A stretch of DNA of 64,000 nucleotides from Morchella semilibera (lineage: Eukaryota > Ascomycota > Pezizomycetes > Pezizales > Morchellaceae). The notes under the pieces are model-generated. The model made no database searches and was not told the DNA's origin. It saw only the letters and a list, made by a program, of their open reading frames with translations. A program made the translations under genes and the position numbers. Below are positions 30,465 to 39,644 of this stretch, one piece after another. Numbering within the stretch: the stretch's first letter is position 1; each line of letters opens with the position of its first letter. The stretch spans positions 1 to 64,000 of the forward strand of contig WBVU01000011.1 in the NCBI GenBank assembly GCA_009192285.1, in the 5' to 3' direction.

Positions 30465-31629
30465 AGCCCTAACCCTGAGAGGGAAAATATTATCTATTAT
30501 GGCTAGTCAAACCTATGCACCTATACTATTTGACACTGAGAGACCATCAATAACCACTATACTATCACTTAATACAAGTTAATTAACTATGTCTGGGCAT
30601 ATATAATTTGGGGGAAACAACACTCTTTTCGTAAATACAAAGCTCGTTGGTAAAAATTTAGGTAAAACCACATCTTGATACGTCACTTACATCGGACATC
30701 ACACGTAGGTACTGTATCATTGAGTTGATTTATCGATTTCTTTAGTATTAGAAAACATAAAATATACATTTATCGGGCTATTATAGGGTCTGGAGATAAG
30801 GCACGATCTCCGGAGCTCTCTCTGTGTTTGAATCTACGGGTACTTAAATACGGTCCTTGTGATTGGCCATAGAGTAAAGCAGCTAGATCGAAGTTTTCCA
30901 AACCAAGTATATAGTTCAGGTATCTTTAGCCACCCATCTCCTATATCAGATATCATCTAAAGCTGACTTTATGTCACGCCACACGTGCACGACTATACTA
31001 GGTCCGCTTTTCTCTCCACAGATATCTACCCCCCCCCATTATCCCTATACCATACACCGAATATTGTCAAAGCATCCGATAACTCGATTATCATATAGCA
31101 CCTATCCCTTACTATGCTGGGGGATCCTTCCATGTGTCCCGGGATTGGAACAGAAATCCATCCATAAGGTCATTGTGCCAAGACGAAGGCCTTTTGCGTC
31201 CACTGAGCGCTCAGAATTATCATTAGAGACTTTAGGTACTCCTCAGCCTTAGGTTTGGAAGTAGCTACCCAGAACTTCTACTCCCCGTTTAGTAGTCCCA
31301 CAGGTTTAGCGAAAATATATAAAGCGTTGCTGTCCCGAAACTGTCTTTTACGACCATTATGACAATCCTGAGTGAGGTATTTGAAGGCAGTTCAATAGGA
31401 CGTATACGGCAGCCTATACTTACAAAAGGGCAAATACAAATCCCGGCAAGAGCAATTTTCAAGCAAAGCAGGGATGTAAACAAAGCTAGTTCACATATAG
31501 GTAGCTAATTTAAAATCTTCGTACGCTACTAGACGGGGGGTGAAAATTTTTTTGCTAGCAAATATACAAATTATAAGAACAGGTTTTACACGGATATTCT
31601 TCACTAAATTTTCCTTCCTCTATAATACA

Positions 31630-32888
31630 ATGTCAACTCAATTTTGCGCAGAAAATCCTGGCCTCGAACACCAAACGTTAACCAGCAAAGGATGTCCATT
31701 CTGTGGGGTACAGCTATCAACTTCTTTGCCCGAGAACCAAAAGCTACCAGTAATCAATTTAGTTGATTCTGACGAAGAACTTTCCATTGCTCAAATGGTT
31801 TCACCTTTACCATCAAAGATTTCTAATTCCGAAACCCCACGAAAGCCAAGCACAAATAAAAGATCTCTCTTCGAAAATAAAACTCAGGTTGAAGAAGCCC
31901 GATCTGCAAATTTTGCAATTGCCAAATGAGCCATGGTCGGAAAAATACCAGGAACATTGAATCTAAAATCAAATAGCACTTTTGGAGTCGGAAATTTCCA
32001 GGCACCAGTAAAGTCTCAGAGACTGATTATTTTGGACATTTATATTGGTCACTGCGGTCAAAAGCCATCCGAGTACAAAAAACTGGGTAAGTTTCTTTCT
32101 ATTATATTCGGGATTTATCTAATTGATTAGATCCTATTAGTATAATATTTCCTGATAGCAATGCTTGGGAATCCAGTTTGGTATGATTTATAAAAAAATA
32201 TTTTATTGAAGACTCAATTGAGCTTCAAGATTACTTAAAATCTTTACCGACTGGTGATCAATCTAAGCTATCTACCCCCGCTTTTCTTTCTCCCGATGTC
32301 AGCAATACGCACGGTTTTACAAGACTACCACGTTCAGCAACAGATAATGGTTTCTATATCAATGATCTCCTAAAGCATTTTCCAAAGGGTCGAATTGCAT
32401 TAGTTATGCAAACTGAATCGTTAGTTGCGGATAAGTCAGAAACCGAGGATGAATCAGTAAAAAAAACTGTTAAGGGAAAACAACGAAAACAAATCAAAAA
32501 CGAAAGGCGGAGTCCAAAGAGTCCAGTAGTAGTAAAAAAGGAATATGGAAAAAGAAAAAGAAATGATGAACATGAAGTCAAACAGGTAATTCTCATTAAT
32601 ACAAATTTCATTCTTATATTTACTAAATTTATATAGGAAGCAGAGTCTCCAACCAGGAATATCAAAACTGAGGTTAAACGCAGGAAGTTCAAAAGGTCAA
32701 TTCTTTCGAAAACCAAAGGAGAGGATATACAGCAGATGGTTAATGCCGCAGTAAAGGAGTTAGATGATTGTCAGTTATCTGAAAATGATATTACTGGTTT
32801 AAACAAGAATGTGGAAGTGTTTGGGGTAGCTACTCCCCCGAAAGCCCCAAAAGGATATGTTTATGAACCAATTATAAGTCCCGAATAA
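31630..32888 (+). pseudogene. Accessory gene of the integrase element, broken
   Basis: The frame starts MSTQFCAENPGLEHQTLTSK with a half zinc-ribbon CPFCG and then PVINLVDSDEE, which resembles a SUMO-interaction motif. It is cut by a TGA at 31927-31929, and the same frame continues in coding style (AMVGKIPGTLNL...) to a GTAAGT donor near 32087. After the acceptor at about 32158 the frame reads AMLGNPVWYD, then stops. Shifting by one base in a T/A-rich run restores FIKKYFIEDSIELQDYLKSL and continues through a Lys/Arg-rich region. A second intron (about 32587-32636) follows, and the frame ends YVYEPIISPE-TAA. One nonsense change and one single-base frameshift thus separate it from an intact gene of roughly 370 codons. 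It converges on the integrase gene with 23 bases between stop codons, which argues that both belong to one element. Function unknown; the basic, acidic and Zn-ligand features suggest a nuclear protein. Confidence 0.6.
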
Positions 32889-32911
32889 ATATCAAACAGC
32901 GTTGTACATAA

Positions 32912-34914
32912 CTACTCTTCAATTTCAATTTCGCTCTCTAAAACAATATTGTTTGACATTTCGTAATCTCTCTCCATCAGCCAAGAATATGCACCGGTTG
33001 GACCTTTCGCAAGCTGAAGAATTGGTGCTTCAAGTGTTTGCATATGATTTTGAATTGCTGACCGGAGATATCTAAATAAAATTAGTATAATTTTTGTATA
33101 AAATAAAAAATAAATAGAAACTTACATATATGCATAAATATGTGTATCGGTACCATCTAACTCTTTTTCCTCTAATGTAATCGGAAGGTTAAGGTTATTA
33201 TTCCTTAACGATATTGAGCACCAATTCCAGGTATCAATGGGTAAATCTACGTTGGGATCTATTAAAATTATAATATTAAATTTGGTACTTCTATTAAGTA
33301 TAAAACAAACTTAAATGAGAGTTATATACCGTAGCTAGATATATATTCCTCTAAATCGGCCAATAAGAAAGCATCAGGTGTTGTTCCATAATTTTGAACG
33401 TTCGGATTATTGATTTCTGGGTGGTGATAATTAAGAATTGGCTTTCTCGGAACCATGAAAGGTCTAGTTCTTTGTTTTCTGATCTTGTGTATATTCCAAA
33501 TATGTGTGAAATGATAAATATGGGTACGGAGAATTGGAAGATATATGTATGCAACTGCAATTTTGTCGGCGATACTATCTATATCCAATAGATTTTCACC
33601 TTTCAAACGAGAGAATAAATCCTATATGATCAACTCCATATTAATAAGTAAAAATCAATTTATAAATATTACGCAATCCCTACCAAGCGAGTTCATTAAC
33701 AATTAAACATAGAATAGATTTTAATTCAAATGTCTTCAAATTAAGACTTTGATAATAAAATTCTTCTCCGTTTAAAAATAACCCCAACTTGACAAACACT
33801 GAACTTGCTCGGCTAGGAATGAGAATAATTTTTAGGGGATAAGAAATAAATAATACTTTCCACATTCCTGATTGCCCTCGAGTCATAATATCCCACCAAG
33901 CTTCAATTCTTTGATTTCTCATTGAGGTTCCATAAAGATGAGCTTGACTGAAAGGTAGATTGTCATCTTGTTTCTCGATTTTGGTAAATTGCCAATGGGC
34001 ATTGGCAATTAAAGGTGTTTCGGTACCATGATCAGAACGAAGAAACTTAGGTTTTATTCCTCCAATAGATATGGTTTTAAGGTATTGGGACAGAATACCA
34101 ACAGCAGTAGTAGCTGAAATACCAACATATATCCAGACAATATATCTGGAATATGCATCAATTCCAGCATATATCTCAATTCCGTAATTCTTAAACTTTA
34201 GATGTCCATTTATAGACCATACCCAATTTGGACCTGGAACTCGATAGTGTCCTTTATGATTCCGTTGACCATTTAATCTATTAGAAACACCAACTGGATC
34301 CAGTTCCCGTAGAATAGAAAACATCCTATCTCTAGCGACCAGAATGCCTTTAGCTTTGAGGTGGCGGTACATATATTCTCTTCCGTATTGAGCAGGTATA
34401 TGACTTTCAAGCTCGGACTTTAATGATTTTTTAAGTCTCTCATTGGCGAAACCCACTTCAGCATTAGTTATTGAACGTGGAAAGCCAAGTTCCCTTCGAA
34501 GACTTTGTAAACGACGCCAACCAATAATATATCCTAGAAACAATTAGTAATCATAATTCATAACAATTGATGAAGTTTTATGGTACCTTCTGAATCTAGA
34601 ACATGTAAAATTTCCTGGTCATTCAACGCAAGATGAGTAACGCAAACAATAATCCGAAACCTCAGCTCAGGAGTATCATCGGTAAATATCCGCTTATTGA
34701 TTTTCCAATTTTGAAGGACTGTCTTCAAACTTCGCTCAGTGGATTATAATTTCAATAATGATTCTATATTTGCAGATTGTAGAATATACCTTGCTTGCAG
34801 ATCATGATTTTCCTTTAGGTAGTTGAGAATTTGTTTAATATTAGCATTCTCGTTAAGATATAAATCTATAATTTGCTCTTTATATAGTTCGAAAGGTATT
34901 TTCGGTCGGCCCAT
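32912..34914 (-). CDS. Integrase-type DDE transposase with Clr5-like N-terminus, probably inactive
   Basis: Exons about 34914-34790, 34734-34587, 34533-33857, 33621-33330, 33258-33126 and 33071-32912 give some 510 residues. Exon 1 (MGRPKIPFELYKEQIIDLYL...) resembles the helical Clr5 DNA-binding domain. The integrase core follows: SINGHLKFKNYGIEIYAGID, then FLRSDHGTET (second Asp) and RNQRIEAWW (Glu). The first catalytic Asp, normally SIDGH, is Asn here. After the core comes DLFSRLKGENLLDIDSIADK and FTHIWNIHKIRKQRTRP, typical for this fungal family. The frame would then skip a 235-bp intron (33856-33622), long for this window and itself mostly open. The first intron has a good GTATAT donor (34789), but its acceptor does not keep frame, so the gene may also be damaged there. 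Such proteins cut and join transposon ends. The family is clear; activity is doubtful. Confidence 0.75.
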
Positions 34915-35104
34915 ATTTGATTATAATTGAGTTGGTAAGTGACGGAAGTAAACAGTCGGGGAAATGATGACTTTTTATATGTTAGCAACCGAAATGAGAG
35001 TTTTACTATATATAGCTAGATAAGTTCACCATCATATATTGCTAGAAAATTTTTGCATACAGAGCCGCAAACTAATTCAAAACTGGAATAGTAAAGAAAA
35101 ATTT

Positions 35105-36346
35105 TCAAACCTGTTTGTCAGACCATATTTTCAAACTCTTATCCGTCATAAATACCATAGAATACCTATCACCAACAACAGGTAGATTATAATGTGAAAG
35201 AACAGCAGAACGAAACATAATAATAGAACCCGCCGGAAAGGGTACTACTGAGAGAAGTTCAGAAAATACCAATTCCCCACCATCAAACGCACCCCAACAA
35301 ATAATGACACAAATCCCACCCTTAATATCACCTAAATCCTTATGAATTTTGGTTTGTACCAATTTATTTATTACAACCGCTGCAAACAAACTAGCATATT
35401 TGTTGCATCCTTCCGGTACCTTTATACTCTTATAGACTTGATAGATCTCAGGATAGTTCCTCAAAATTAGACCTTCAATATATCCAAAAAGGCGTAAATT
35501 AGATCTCTGAAACTTCTTTGCAGCCATATAGAATGGATTATCCCTTCTCTTATAATGCTTTCCTGTTCCAGGTTCACGGTAGTGTGCAGAAATATAAGGC
35601 TTAACAAATCTGCCAGATTTATACCAACACCCAAGAACTATAGCAGTATAATCACCTCTCGTATGAGTGTAATCATAACTACAACTGGCAGTAGGAAAGG
35701 ATACGGAAGAGTCATAGGTATTCCAAGCATCAACTAGTCCATCAAATATATCCCCGGGTAATGTATGAAGTGGAAATAAATGAACTAACATAGTTCCTTT
35801 TGAGTCAACTAGTTGCAAACCGTTGATAATTTCTGACTTTGAATAAACCCTATGTGTCCGATATATCTCATCCGGGAGCCTTTGTAAAAAAGGGCTAGGT
35901 TGTGTAGTCCTTGTTCTTCGATTGATTAAAGCTAAACTTAATTTCGGGGAAGCTACCGTATTGGTATGGGATTGTATCTTTTGAATTTTAGTGTCGGTTA
36001 ATTTATTACTTTGCTTTTTCTTCCGGGCCGCTCTTTTCCTACTCCATTTTGACTGGGAACAGGTCAAAGGCTCGATAATAGTGCTATTAATAGAGACGAC
36101 GGACTCCGCCGTATCAAAATGATAGGCTGGATCACATAGCCACCCCTCAGGTTTAAGCGGTGGACAGGTAATATTATGTTGAATCAACGCTTGAGAAGTC
36201 AAACTCGGAGTAACTATAGATTCCTGATATTCAGAATCAACTTCCAAAGTATCGGGCTGATTCATACTATCTTCAACATCCTCCGGAAAACCAAATGTCT
36301 CAATGGTTACAGCTAGGAGCGCTTGTGTTGAGGAATCATTTAGCAT
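35105..36346 (-). CDS. TET/JBP-like 2-oxoglutarate/Fe(II) dioxygenase, element-borne
   Basis: One uninterrupted ATG-to-TGA frame of 413 codons. The first 200 residues are polar and low-complexity, with a basic patch (KWSRKRAARKKKQ) that could serve nuclear import. The C-terminal half is a double-stranded beta-helix: TKIHKDLGD supplies the iron-binding H-x-D (His335, Asp337), GGICVIICWGAFDGGELVF forms the central strands, FPAGSIIMFRSAVLSHYN the second iron His (385), and VVGDRYSMVF the 2-oxoglutarate-binding Arg (394). The order and spacing match the fungal TET/JBP oxygenase domain. TET enzymes oxidise 5-methylcytosine and JBP enzymes thymine in DNA; the substrate here is inferred from family only. 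It lies 190 bases from the transposase gene in the same orientation, and its ATG is about 15-25 bases from a 175-bp tandem array. It is the only undamaged gene of the block. Confidence 0.75.
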   Translation of the reverse strand: MLNDSSTQALLAVTIETFGFPEDVEDSMNQPDTLEVDSEYQESIVTPSLTSQALIQHNITCPPLKPEGWLCDPAYHFDTAESVVSINSTIIEPLTCSQSKWSRKRAARKKKQSNKLTDTKIQKIQSHTNTVASPKLSLALINRRTRTTQPSPFLQRLPDEIYRTHRVYSKSEIINGLQLVDSKGTMLVHLFPLHTLPGDIFDGLVDAWNTYDSSVSFPTASCSYDYTHTRGDYTAIVLGCWYKSGRFVKPYISAHYREPGTGKHYKRRDNPFYMAAKKFQRSNLRLFGYIEGLILRNYPEIYQVYKSIKVPEGCNKYASLFAAVVINKLVQTKIHKDLGDIKGGICVIICWGAFDGGELVFSELLSVVPFPAGSIIMFRSAVLSHYNLPVVGDRYSMVFMTDKSLKIWSDKQV

Positions 36347-36360
36347 TTTGATATTAGATA

Positions 36361-37350
36361 TACTAGTACAACTCCACGGGTTTTGGTCCGATCGCTTTGA
36401 AAAGTAGATAGGATGATTCCTCTCGCTGAGTAGGTCTAGGGCGTATATAGTATGGCGTTCTCCTGTGTGTTCCTAGGGTGACTCCTAGGAATTTAGTACC
36501 TAATTGATTCAATCTATAGCGATCTAGAAACGGAATTGCTCACAGTTCCACGAGTTCTGGTCTGATTGCTTCGAAATGTGGATAGGAAGATTCCTCTCAC
36601 TGAGTAGGTCTAGGGCGTGTATGGTACAGTGCTCTCCTGTGTATTTCTAGAGGTAACACTTAGGACTTTAGTACTTCATTGGTTCAATTCATTGTGATAT
36701 AGTAGCGGAAATGCTCACAGCTCCACGAGTTTAAGTCTGATCGCTTCGAAAAGTGAATAGGAGGATTCCCCTCGTTGAGTAGGTCTAGGACGTATATAGC
36801 ACGCTATTCTCTCGTATATTTTTAAGTATATTTCTCAAGACTTTGGTACTTTAGTACTTGAAATTATAGTGATACAGGGACGGAAATGCTCACAGTTCCA
36901 CGAGTTTTGGTCCGATTGCTTCGAAAAGTAGATAGGAAGATTCTTCTCGTCAAGTAGGTCTAGAACCTATATAGTACGCTATTCCCTCGTATATATCTAG
37001 GTATGTGTCTTTAGACTTTAATACTTTAGCATTTGAAATTATAGTGATACAGGGACGGAAATGCTCACAGCTCCACGGGTTTTGGTCTGATTGCTTCGAG
37101 AAGTAGATAGAAAGATTCCTCTCGTTGAGTAGGTTTAGGGCGTATATAATACAGTGCTCTCCTGTATGTTTCTAGGAATGACTCTTAGGACTTTAGTACT
37201 CAATTGTTTCAATTCATAAGATTAGAGAGACGGAAATGCTTACAGCTCCACGAGTTCTACTCCGATTGCTTTGAAAAGAAAATAGGAAGATTCTCCGCGT
37301 CCAGTAGGTCTAGAGCGTATATAGTATAGTGTGTTGTTATGTGTTTTCCA
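36361..37350. repeat. 175-bp tandem repeat array, about 5.6 copies
   Basis: Unit starts (CTCCACG or TTCCACG followed by A/G-GTT) fall at 36372, 36546, 36721, 36896, 37071 and 37246, a period of 174-175 bases throughout. Each unit contains GATTGCTTCGAAAAG-like, TTCCTCTCGTTGAGTAGGT-like and CGTATATAGTAC-like words and ends with GGAAATGCTCACAG. The sixth copy fades near 37350. Units differ by substitutions and small indels, so the array is not newly made. It lies directly 5' of the TET/JBP-like gene. Confidence 0.9.
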
Positions 37351-38243
37351 GGCACCTATTGAGGGATTAATATTTTGATATATGAGAATAGAAATATTCC
37401 AGTTTTCTATATACCTAGGCCCGCTACCTATGAATCTTCTTACGAAGATGTAATGTTTGAAGATGTTATATGAATTCCTTTGCTTGCAGGAAATCCGAAG
37501 AAATAGGCCTGTCAGTACTCAGACGCGACCGTTACAATAATACTAGCAATGAGATGTGGTTAATTATTGTGACAAAGAAATGTGTATAAGCAAAAGACAA
37601 TTCTAGTAATCAGGTAATCAATATATCGAACATGGCATTGTCCCAATAGTCATGATTATTCTGATTCCCAGTGGTTGGTTGATAAACAAACGCGTCGATG
37701 GGCAGTGCTAGAGATAGTGTAGTGGGTTGAAGCTGTTGCCATGGCAACCAACAACCCTGCAAGCCTAAGTCAAAAATCATATCTGCCCTTTTGTAAGTAT
37801 AGGCTGCCGTAGGACGTACCCCGCCATTCCAACGGTGCCAATCAGCGTCACATTGTATTAATTACACAATCCGCAGATCTATGTTCTATAATTTAACGAG
37901 TTAAACTGTGTCAACGATGTATGTTTAACTGCGCAAGTTCAGCGTGCTACTCACACAATTGATATTAACACAATTTGGTTGCGTCTGTACGTGTGTTGTT
38001 GCCTATACACGTAATTGCTTTTGTTGATGGCCACGCAATGCAATGGGGGGGTATCGATAAGATCCTAACTGGACCAATCTTCGTAAACCAACACCCACAC
38101 CCACACGTGGGTCCGATATCATAAATTATAATCTAGGGTACCGACCCCCCCCTTTAATCCACTCTTATAACCTAAAATCGCCCTTTCCCCCGCAGTACTG
38201 TTTTGTCTGTACGGTAGCTAAGGTTAAGACTGATACGTCTAGG
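37351..38243. other. Intergenic stretch before the IRG-like gene
   Basis: No coding frame. Composition changes from AT-rich to more balanced toward 38000. A pyrimidine-rich stretch (CGCCCTTTCCCCC, about 38178) lies some 65 bases before the GTPase ATG and is a plausible fungal core-promoter feature. Confidence 0.4.
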
Positions 38244-39644
38244 ATGTTAGTTTTTCGTTTCCTACCTCACCCAGATATAGCTAACCAAGCTTCATTTAGG
38301 GCGTTTGTTCTTGCAGCTATTCCCAGTCTTGCATATTCTACATGGGGAACCCTCGGTCTTTCTGCTGGTTTCCTCGCCGGCTGGTGGGTGAAGGGACTCA
38401 TGAGGGAAAACGAAACGCTTCGCGGGATTGCTGCACACAATACGCGATTGGAGACGATGTTGGCCGAGCTGGGCGAGCTGGCAGAACCGGGACAGGTGAA
38501 AGTGGGCGAGCCCTCGAGCTCGTCGAATGTCACGGGGGGCGATCTGAACAAAAATAATTCGAATATAGAAGAAATAGAACGATTACTGAAGGAAGTAGAA
38601 GACGCAACAGGTCTATCTCACTGCCCTACCGACCTTGAGGTTGCCGCTGTCAAAGAGAAACTCGGGTATAGTGATCAATATGCCAACGTTGCCGTTACCG
38701 GGGCGAGAGGCTGTGGGAAATCATCCCTCTTGAACGCTTTGAGGGGGTTAGAAGATGGTGATGAAGGTGCAGCTGCGACAGGTGTTACTGAGACGACCTC
38801 CCATACCACCCGATATATCGACCCTGAAGCTTCTAAGCCTCGAGACACAATCGCCTGGTTCGACATACCAGGCGCTGGAACTCTAAAAATCCCAGCTTGG
38901 CAGTATTTCAATAATCAAGGACTTTATATCTTCGACCTGATCATCGTAGTGCTAAATGAGACCCTCTCTGCCATAGAAATCGACATCCTCAAACGCTGCA
39001 TCCAATTCAAAATTCCAACATTCATCGTATGGTCAAAGTCCGATTCGCATATTCGAAATCAAATGGAGACAACACTAGCGAAGAGATACCCCAATTACAA
39101 GCGTCTCGAGTTAGAGGATATGGACACTATTTCGAGAAATGCACATTATCAAAGATGCGAGGCTGAAGTTATCGCCCAGAGAGTTAACTGTGTCAACACT
39201 CAACTCATGCTAGCCAGGATGTCGGAGCAAAGGGTGTACAATATCCATTACAAGATGGTTGGTCGGGTATTCGATAGAATCCTTCAGACTGAGGAAGATG
39301 ATGAGGAACTACAATTAGCAATAGAGGGTGAGGCATCTCACGCAACGTCCGGAGGATTGATGGCATTAAAAATTACAACAACGGCCGACCCACCTCCTTA
39401 CACTCCCCGCGAGGGTGATGTCAATATCCCTCAGCTTGCACCTTCTGAAACGACAACCTCCCTTTCTCCCAAAATACTGCCTGTTATGAATCCAAGTAAC
39501 AGCGGACGTCCCACGACAGTTGAGCCACCCCAGCGTTTCCCGAAAGAGATTGACGAAGAAGAATTGATCCGTGACCTCCTAAAGGCAATACGTGAGAGGC
39601 GTCCTCCATTTAAAATCTTTTACGCACCGCCTGCAAGCTCCTAA
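38244..39644 (+). CDS. IRG-like (interferon-inducible type) GTPase
   Basis: One exon of 466 codons. The GTP-binding motifs are clear: P-loop GARGCGKS (153-160), the GVTETT switch-like stretch (180-185), WFDIPGAG (205-212) as G3, and VWSKSD (262-267) as G4. The W.D.PG.G form, with a helical domain after the G domain, is the pattern of IIGP/IRG GTPases rather than Ras or dynamin. Residues about 18-50 (AFVLAAIPSLAYSTWGTLGL onward) form a hydrophobic stretch that could anchor it in a membrane, followed by a coiled or linker region. The C-terminal 100 residues are Pro/Ser/Thr-rich and probably disordered, ending with a basic FKIFYAPPASS tail. In vertebrates such GTPases attack pathogen vacuoles; in fungi their role is unknown. 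No intron or damage is seen. GTPase call firm, IRG placement good. Confidence 0.85.
   Translation: MLVFRFLPHPDIANQASFRAFVLAAIPSLAYSTWGTLGLSAGFLAGWWVKGLMRENETLRGIAAHNTRLETMLAELGELAEPGQVKVGEPSSSSNVTGGDLNKNNSNIEEIERLLKEVEDATGLSHCPTDLEVAAVKEKLGYSDQYANVAVTGARGCGKSSLLNALRGLEDGDEGAAATGVTETTSHTTRYIDPEASKPRDTIAWFDIPGAGTLKIPAWQYFNNQGLYIFDLIIVVLNETLSAIEIDILKRCIQFKIPTFIVWSKSDSHIRNQMETTLAKRYPNYKRLELEDMDTISRNAHYQRCEAEVIAQRVNCVNTQLMLARMSEQRVYNIHYKMVGRVFDRILQTEEDDEELQLAIEGEASHATSGGLMALKITTTADPPPYTPREGDVNIPQLAPSETTTSLSPKILPVMNPSNSGRPTTVEPPQRFPKEIDEEELIRDLLKAIRERRPPFKIFYAPPASS

Follow-up and report, generated by a model that had tools for sequence, protein, structure and literature searches.

A TET/JBP-like oxygenase gene on an IS3EU-type transposon, and a histone-demethylase-like gene in the oxygenase position of a sister element

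IS3EU elements, which have TA..TA ends and target-site duplications usually of 6 bp (in the portions of PMC10045372 drawn on), include members in rusts and in Tuber that carry a TET/JBP gene, and for these an anti-silencing role has been proposed (Kojima 2025, PMC12730594; here and below for the passages of that paper drawn on). The present analysis concerns an element of this kind in the window, a stretch of 64,000 nucleotides (positions 1 to 64,000 of contig WBVU01000011.1, assembly GCA_009192285.1), in which an integrase-type transposase is accompanied by an intact TET/JBP-like oxygenase. Given its relatives elsewhere in the same genome, one of which carries a histone-demethylase-like JmjC gene, we consider it likely that the oxygenase oxidises 5-methylcytosine (5mC) on the DNA of the element itself and so counters silencing by the host.

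The elements described by Kojima, IS3EU-1_TuIn of Tuber indicum among them, combine IS3EU ends and terminal inverted repeats (TIRs) of more than 30 bp with a DDE transposase and a TET/JBP gene, as the window element does; those of rusts have ends of the form TAYGG..CCRTA and 6-bp duplications, and occurrence in Pezizomycetes is also reported. In the passages drawn on, all of them carry an alpha-kinase gene, with the TET/JBP gene between it and the transposase, and in the Tuber element a large N-terminal part of the TET domain is deleted (PMC12730594). TET/JBP genes also travel with the KDZ transposons (Kyakuja, Dileera, Zisupton) of basidiomycetes, likewise DNA transposons but with a different transposase, whereas the window element has the integrase core of IS3EU. 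HarbingerS and MuDR elements with SET methyltransferases and the anti-silencing proteins of Vandal elements are further transposon-borne chromatin regulators, in which both the enzymes and the transposon superfamilies differ from those considered here (all PMC12730594).

The window element, its ends and its class

Positions are those of the window unless a contig label (C1, C5 and so on) precedes them; the genome comprises 56.8 Mb in 23 contigs, and the window lies on C10. The transposon spans 31405-37811 (6,407 bp) and encloses the accessory gene, the transposase and the oxygenase:

31398..31404, no strand: target-site duplication, left copy, GGACGTA, 7 bp
31405..31436, plus strand: left TIR TACGGCAGCCTATACTTACAAAAGGGCAAATA, 32 nt, with 97% complementarity to the right TIR
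31630..32888, plus strand: accessory gene, several predicted exons, at least one in-frame TGA at 31927-31929, homologue in the C5 element
32912..34914, minus strand: transposase gene, Clr5 at the start followed by an rva_4/rve integrase core, exon structure predicted
35105..36346, minus strand: TET/JBP-like 2-oxoglutarate (2OG)-Fe(II) oxygenase, 413 aa, intact, with H335-x-D337, H385 and R394
36368-37332, no strand: subterminal tandem array, 5.5 x 175 bp, flanked by the oxygenase start and the right end
37780..37811, minus strand: right TIR, 32 nt
37812..37818, no strand: target-site duplication, right copy, GGACGTA, 7 bp

An earlier note on this DNA had taken the three genes for one mobile unit. 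This is borne out by the TIRs, by the target duplication and by a diverged element on C5, in which all three genes recur and the ends are identical. The limits it gave do not stand, the element reaching about 225 bp further left and about 460 bp further right, and it had missed the TIRs with their duplication, the tandem array, the interruptions and the Asp-to-Asn change of the transposase, and the site of the accessory break. Its finer description holds: the 23-bp gap between the accessory gene (ending at 32888) and the DDE gene (32912), the 190 bp that separate the start of the DDE gene (34914) from the stop of the oxygenase (35105), the broken accessory gene, the Clr5 and integrase-core regions of the transposase, and the intact minus-strand oxygenase of 413 codons with its H335-x-D337, H385 and R394 residues.

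The element starts with TACGG and finishes with CCGTA. A 25-nt core of the TIR, sought with up to 3 mismatches, occurs at 6 sites in the genome, all of them accounted for by three element pairs (the window element, an element at the same coordinates on C9 and the C5 element, both ends of which carry the identical core), and a reversed control pattern occurs at none; the pattern is therefore above chance. Contigs C9 and C10, of 2.07 Mb each and identical over the compared part of the element (32183-37846), resemble two versions of one chromosome and are consequently counted once. More generally, the contig pairs C9/C10, C12/C13 and C21/C22 show the same features at near-equal coordinates, as in a heterokaryon or an assembly that is duplicated in part, and matches in paired contigs are for that reason also counted once.

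TACGG..CCGTA termini are common to seven elements of the genome, with duplications of 7 bp in the window, 6 bp in C5, C1, C15, C21 and C5b, and 7 bp in C19. On the strength of these ends and of the 6-bp duplications in most of its sister elements, the window element is an IS3EU-type DNA transposon; the integrase/rve-type DDE transposase that is a further criterion of IS3EU is present, Pfam matching both Clr5 (7.6e-7) and the rva_4 integrase core (8e-18) over their cut-offs. It belongs to the published kind of IS3EU element with a TET gene, from which it differs by an HxD motif, a 7-bp rather than a 6-bp duplication and the lack of a detected alpha-kinase. Because no kinase family was found among the 8 window open reading frames (ORFs) scanned by Pfam, with the accessory piece 31930-32086 outside that scan, we class it as an IS3EU element with a TET-like gene and not as a member of one of Kojima's alpha-kinase families.

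The frame interruptions of the transposase are consistent with introns. Where the transposases of C5, C1, C15 and C21 read I-D-G-H, that of the window reads I-N-G-H, so that of its three catalytic acids the first, Asp, is replaced by Asn and the other two (D and E) are retained; D-D-E is intact in the other four. In light of this substitution the window copy is probably no longer able to make an active transposase of its own, and it probably moves only with transposase supplied by another copy. The accessory gene, scanned as three pieces, matched no Pfam family over its cut-off; by eye, a C..H..C..C pattern can be made out at its N terminus, and also an acidic stretch, VINLVDSDEE. Outside the element, about 440 bp to its right, begins a gene for an IIGP-type GTPase (38253-39644, 2.1e-24).

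The oxygenase and its relatives

Searched in full against Pfam at E<=1, the window oxygenase matches Tet_JBP as its sole family (2.1e-5, 24.2 bits; domain alone 2.7e-6, 27.2 bits), HMMER filters discarding most matches above 0.1. Both scores lie under the gathering cut-off of 34.9 bits, and the wording 'TET/JBP-like' reflects this; four relatives within the genome exceed the cut-off (C7, C6:1734168, C21 and C11). Eleven domains were compared in all (window, C5, C6, C17, C7, C21, C6b, C1, C16, C5:387 and C11:879), and Tet_JBP is matched by ten of them, at best with 6.4e-15. The earlier note had named a best match outside the TET family as the result that would speak against its proposed pairing of an integrase-core DDE enzyme with a TET/JBP-like oxygenase; Tet_JBP is the only Pfam family listed, and no AlkB model is listed either for the full window protein or for the eleven domains. 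The pairing is thus supported, with Tet_JBP as best family, and is not new, having been published (PMC12730594).

A profile of the eleven domains searched against the PDB is led by CcTet of Coprinopsis cinerea (7vpn, 8jkk; 1.2e-7) and the Naegleria Tet-like dioxygenase (5cg8, 4lt5; 6.5e-6), the next best match being at 0.79, and the C7 relative, itself found by the window protein at 7e-15, finds CcTet unaided (2.6e-6). What the window protein shares with these enzymes is the C-terminal HxD..H..R domain, comprising the iron triad and the downstream R for 2-oxoglutarate, aligned with CcTet through the profile. The alignment covers about 90 residues, and the first 260 residues of the window protein matched no named family in the searches made. 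The TET/JBP assignment therefore appears transitive, running through bridging sequences, but consistent. HxD is present in 10 of the 11 members, C11:879 having NxD, and HxE, the hallmark of Kojima's PE type (PMC12730594), in none. Viral contigs scanned with the oxygenase gave no match.

Between the window and C5 copies, the catalytic domain differs at a proportion of 0.80 of synonymous (pS) and 0.116 of nonsynonymous (pN) sites; its pN/pS of 0.09-0.20 (bootstrap) is the lowest of the parts compared, the transposase core giving 0.19-0.32, the next transposase exon 0.15-0.31 and the accessory exon 0.28-0.50. These ratios are given in place of dN/dS because synonymous sites are saturated in the oxygenase. 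By this measure, selection has kept the catalytic domain of the oxygenase.

TET-like genes of the same genome also ride on two hAT-type elements:

C7:461406-466371: hAT-type element with a TET-like gene, 8-bp duplication GCTCTAAT
C21:913053-918128: hAT-type element with a TET-like gene, 8-bp duplication CCCTTTAT

Tet_JBP is over its cut-off in both. Dimer_Tnp_hAT is matched on C21 (2.3e-9); the C7 ORF scanned gave no Pfam match, and the C7 element is called hAT because its DNA is 87-94% identical to that of the C21 element. The ends were set where the two copies cease to align, and their inverted repeats are short; the 8-bp duplications come from inspection by eye and were not returned by an automated search for the ends. 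A TET-like gene at C6:396140-401780 has a Helitron_like_N/PIF1-type gene as its tail-to-tail neighbour, and one at C17:251544-254021 has a helicase piece in that place; over 3 kb these loci share 92% identity. In Ascomycota the carriers of TET genes reported in the passages drawn on are Helitron and IS3EU only (PMC12730594). Two hAT elements with TET-like genes, as seen here, were not found in print, and a TET-carrying hAT element would be an addition to the known ascomycete carriers if the host is an ascomycete. Two further observations concern this gene family. Another TET/JBP-like group comprises C11:879084-880049, in which N replaces the iron-binding His, C16:1041548-1041787 and C5:387237-387482, with Tet_JBP at E<=0.01 in two of the three; and C6:1729701-1735338, some 37 kb short of the contig end, has a TET-like gene close to one for a RecQ-type helicase.

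Sister elements and their cargo genes

Related elements in the genome are as follows:

C5, 71368-80873: duplication GAGTAC, the window's ends and gene order
C1, 5438958-5445281: duplication GGTAAG, ends alike at 29 of 30 positions, sister family
C15, 887298-894633: duplication ACCAAC, ends alike at 30 of 30, C1-group transposase and accessory gene, JmjC gene
C15, 893594-892284, minus strand: the JmjC gene, KDM4/Rph1-like
C21, 2986481-2992939: IS3EU element, duplication GGGCTG, backbone in C1/C15 order
C5b, 1842521-1849019: duplication CACGAC, twin of the C21 element
C1, 5211163-5214901: decayed eighth element, duplication 5/6
C19, 1813261-1815041: 1.8 kb, 51-nt TIRs, 7-bp duplication GTACGGG, a JmjC relative as the sole gene found

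The C5 element is the closest to that of the window. Its oxygenase (400 aa, intact) is 65-67% identical, its transposase 68-72% identical by part with one in-frame TGA in the core, and its accessory gene 51% identical over exon 1; it has a tandem array of 4.3 x 161 bp at the position of the window array, and a long terminal repeat (LTR) retrotransposon (RNase H and integrase domains by Pfam) interrupts it between its genes. The C1 element is more distant, with a transposase core 44% identical to the window's and an oxygenase whose relationship is weak but clear (24% over 94 residues, 3e-8; Tet_JBP 0.0079). Its accessory gene is related to that of C15 (43-51%) and not detectably to the window's. 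Homology between the window/C5 accessory gene and that of C1, C15 and C21 was considered and set aside, tblastn giving no match at 0.01 and a profile-profile comparison a probability of 5% over 18 columns; the likeness, seen by eye only, lies in N-terminal Cys/His patterns and an acidic stretch.

Read in one direction, the C1 element has oxygenase (+), accessory gene (-) and transposase (+), and the other two follow the same plan with a different first gene, JmjC (+) in C15 and an ORF without a named family (+) in C21. In the window and C5 the order is oxygenase, transposase, accessory gene reversed, the oxygenase again being nearest one end. The C21 ORF (2986969-2988301) has nothing near a Pfam cut-off and a best NCBIfam match of 0.063. 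An apparent likeness to a methyl-CpG-binding motif, noticed by eye, was set aside on that Pfam result. The C21 and C5b elements, 98.9% identical over the 3.3 kb compared, differ in site and duplication; given that near-identical copies occupy different sites, elements of this type have moved recently.

The JmjC gene of C15 occupies the position where C1 carries its oxygenase. One of its exons matches JmjC over the cut-off (3.1e-11, 44.2 bits) and yeast Rph1 (3opt), a KDM4, at 3.9e-17; the preceding exon matches 2w2i (titled 2-oxoglutarate oxygenase) at 1.6e-10 and KDM4D at 1.9e-10. The gene encodes HxE and H as iron ligands, the recognisable residues being WHVED, aligned to 2w2i, and YHSGIN, CPQTLRH and CNC, aligned to Rph1; to the KDM4-type cysteine and histidine residues among these we ascribe a zinc role. 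By its JmjC domain, shared with yeast Rph1 and human KDM4D, and by these ligand residues the C15 cargo fits KDM4/JHDM3, here riding on an IS3EU element, and it would accordingly be a putative demethylase. Outside C15, C17 and C19:1.81 Mb, identity falls to 33-38% for the next JmjC genes among the matches listed. On C17 there is a decayed JmjC piece of 2 kb, 91.5% identical, with one right end 17.7 kb from it and no transposase among the matches listed there; the protein of C19 is cut short before the last iron ligand and is for that reason probably inactive. These two relatives support the status of the JmjC gene as cargo. Between C15 and C19 its exons show pN/pS values of 0.48, 0.31 and 0.42, a weaker constraint than on the catalytic domain of the oxygenase. 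Between the C15 and C17 copies, C>T/G>A differences number 73 and T>C/A>G differences 35; no claim of repeat-induced point mutation (RIP) is made from them, there being no clear preference for CpA or CpG. No fitting JmjC-carrying transposon was found among the titles and abstract openings listed from the literature, searched within open-licence PubMed Central, nor was a sister element with a histone-demethylase-like gene in the oxygenase position found in print. As far as that search reaches, the JmjC-carrying IS3EU element is new; the TET-carrying IS3EU element is already published.

How regularly the transposase is accompanied by such genes can be judged from the rva_4 loci, of which there are at least 12 among the matches listed (C9 and C10 merged; the family lists are lower bounds). 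An oxygenase is present at 3 of these, a JmjC gene at 1 and other cargo at 1 (C21); the rest are the twin C5b, whose cargo stretch was left out, 1 decayed locus and 5 more distant ones. Near the five distant loci the family lists contain no Tet_JBP or JmjC match, one of them having been read over 10 kb and those at C1:2.37 Mb, C3:2.14, C2:2.77 and C2:2.82 judged from the family match lists alone. Transposase copies never found beside an oxygenase, the other result that the earlier note had named as adverse, are not what the genome presents: the oxygenase stands alongside the transposase at 3 of the 12 loci listed, among them both that have the window's ends.

A probable counter to silencing, and the alternatives

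The reading that we regard as likely is that of an IS3EU transposon whose own TET/JBP-like oxygenase oxidises 5mC on element DNA and thereby counters host silencing. Oxygenase expressed from the element would act on 5mC at the element's ends and promoter, silencing by host cytosine methyltransferases would be undone or never established, and production of transposase and binding of the ends would then be possible. The tandem array, lying upstream of the oxygenase gene, may act as promoter of that gene or as a set of transposase binding sites. Genes for host DNA cytosine methyltransferases (PF00145) are present at three places (C12/C13 merged). Removal of 5mC by the oxygenase is what we infer from sequence.

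Several results weigh against this account. The window copy has a target duplication of 7 bp, not 6, and joined flanks of five elements (window, C5, C1, C15 and C21) found no empty site in the genome. The oxygenase falls short of the Tet_JBP gathering cut-off, a profile built from its four nearest relatives alone retrieves no TET structure from the PDB (one match, 1.8), and its N-terminal 260 residues are under weaker constraint (pN/pS 0.30-0.45). The gene order of the window and C5 elements is unlike that of C1, C15 and C21, to whose accessory gene theirs has no detectable homology, and at 9 of the 12 rva_4 loci listed no oxygenase was found. Finally, the observed/expected CpG ratio (CpG o/e) hardly differs between the window element (0.80) and the window as a whole (0.79), its RIP indices show no excess over the surrounding DNA, and there is no footprint of methylation. 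Among the six elements measured, that of C15 has the lowest CpG o/e, 0.49; as the C21 element, without an oxygenase match, stands at 0.88, no CpG rule is drawn from this.

The lack of CpG depletion, which leaves methylation of the element not established, would suit an enzyme that does not erase 5mC at all and instead marks bases of the element, in the manner of JBP with base J or by way of a hypermodified cytosine, to guide transcription or the binding of transposase. Members of the TET/JBP group that make other products have been described, among them CMD1 and JBP (PMC12730594). However, the closest solved relatives, CcTet and Naegleria Tet, are 5mC oxidases (PMC12730594), and no glycosyltransferase family was found for the 8 window ORFs scanned, so that we consider base marking unlikely. 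A passenger role, in which a host gene was merely caught between transposon ends and does nothing for the transposon, draws on the state of the window copy, whose transposase has lost a catalytic Asp and whose accessory gene has a stop while the oxygenase is nevertheless intact. It is very improbable given that the gene recurs between identical ends in the diverged C5 element with its catalytic domain strongly constrained, and that related genes sit on a sister IS3EU family and on hAT-type elements. Least probable of all is a 2OG oxygenase for another class of substrate (a protein or RNA hydroxylase, AlkB- or prolyl-hydroxylase-like), to which weak matches to 2OG-FeII_Oxy_3 (0.0047, in 2 of the 11 members) and a PiuC hydroxylase (0.19) might point, against Tet_JBP in ten members and the lead of CcTet and Naegleria Tet in the PDB profile search.

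Beyond oxidation of 5mC by the window oxygenase, the occurrence of an oxygenase, a JmjC gene or another gene at one position in C1, C15 and C21 suggests a general role against chromatin silencing. In its specific form, to which we give even chances, the IS3EU elements of this genome would have an exchangeable eraser slot, filled by a TET/JBP-like gene in C1, a KDM4-like JmjC gene in C15 and an ORF without a named family in C21. By exchange of one Fe(II)/2-oxoglutarate enzyme for another, a single transposon superfamily would then attack two layers of silencing, methylation of DNA and of histone H3. Since it is their accessory genes that are related, this idea rests on C1, C15 and C21.

If true, the implications reach beyond one element: mobile elements would acquire erasers directed at more than a single silencing layer, and the slot would be selected for anti-silencing as such. 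The elements with an oxygenase, with a JmjC gene and with neither form a natural set that allows direct comparison of element methylation and expression, and a single genome could show, on a question of long standing, which mark, DNA methylation or histone methylation, restrains the transposons of fungi.

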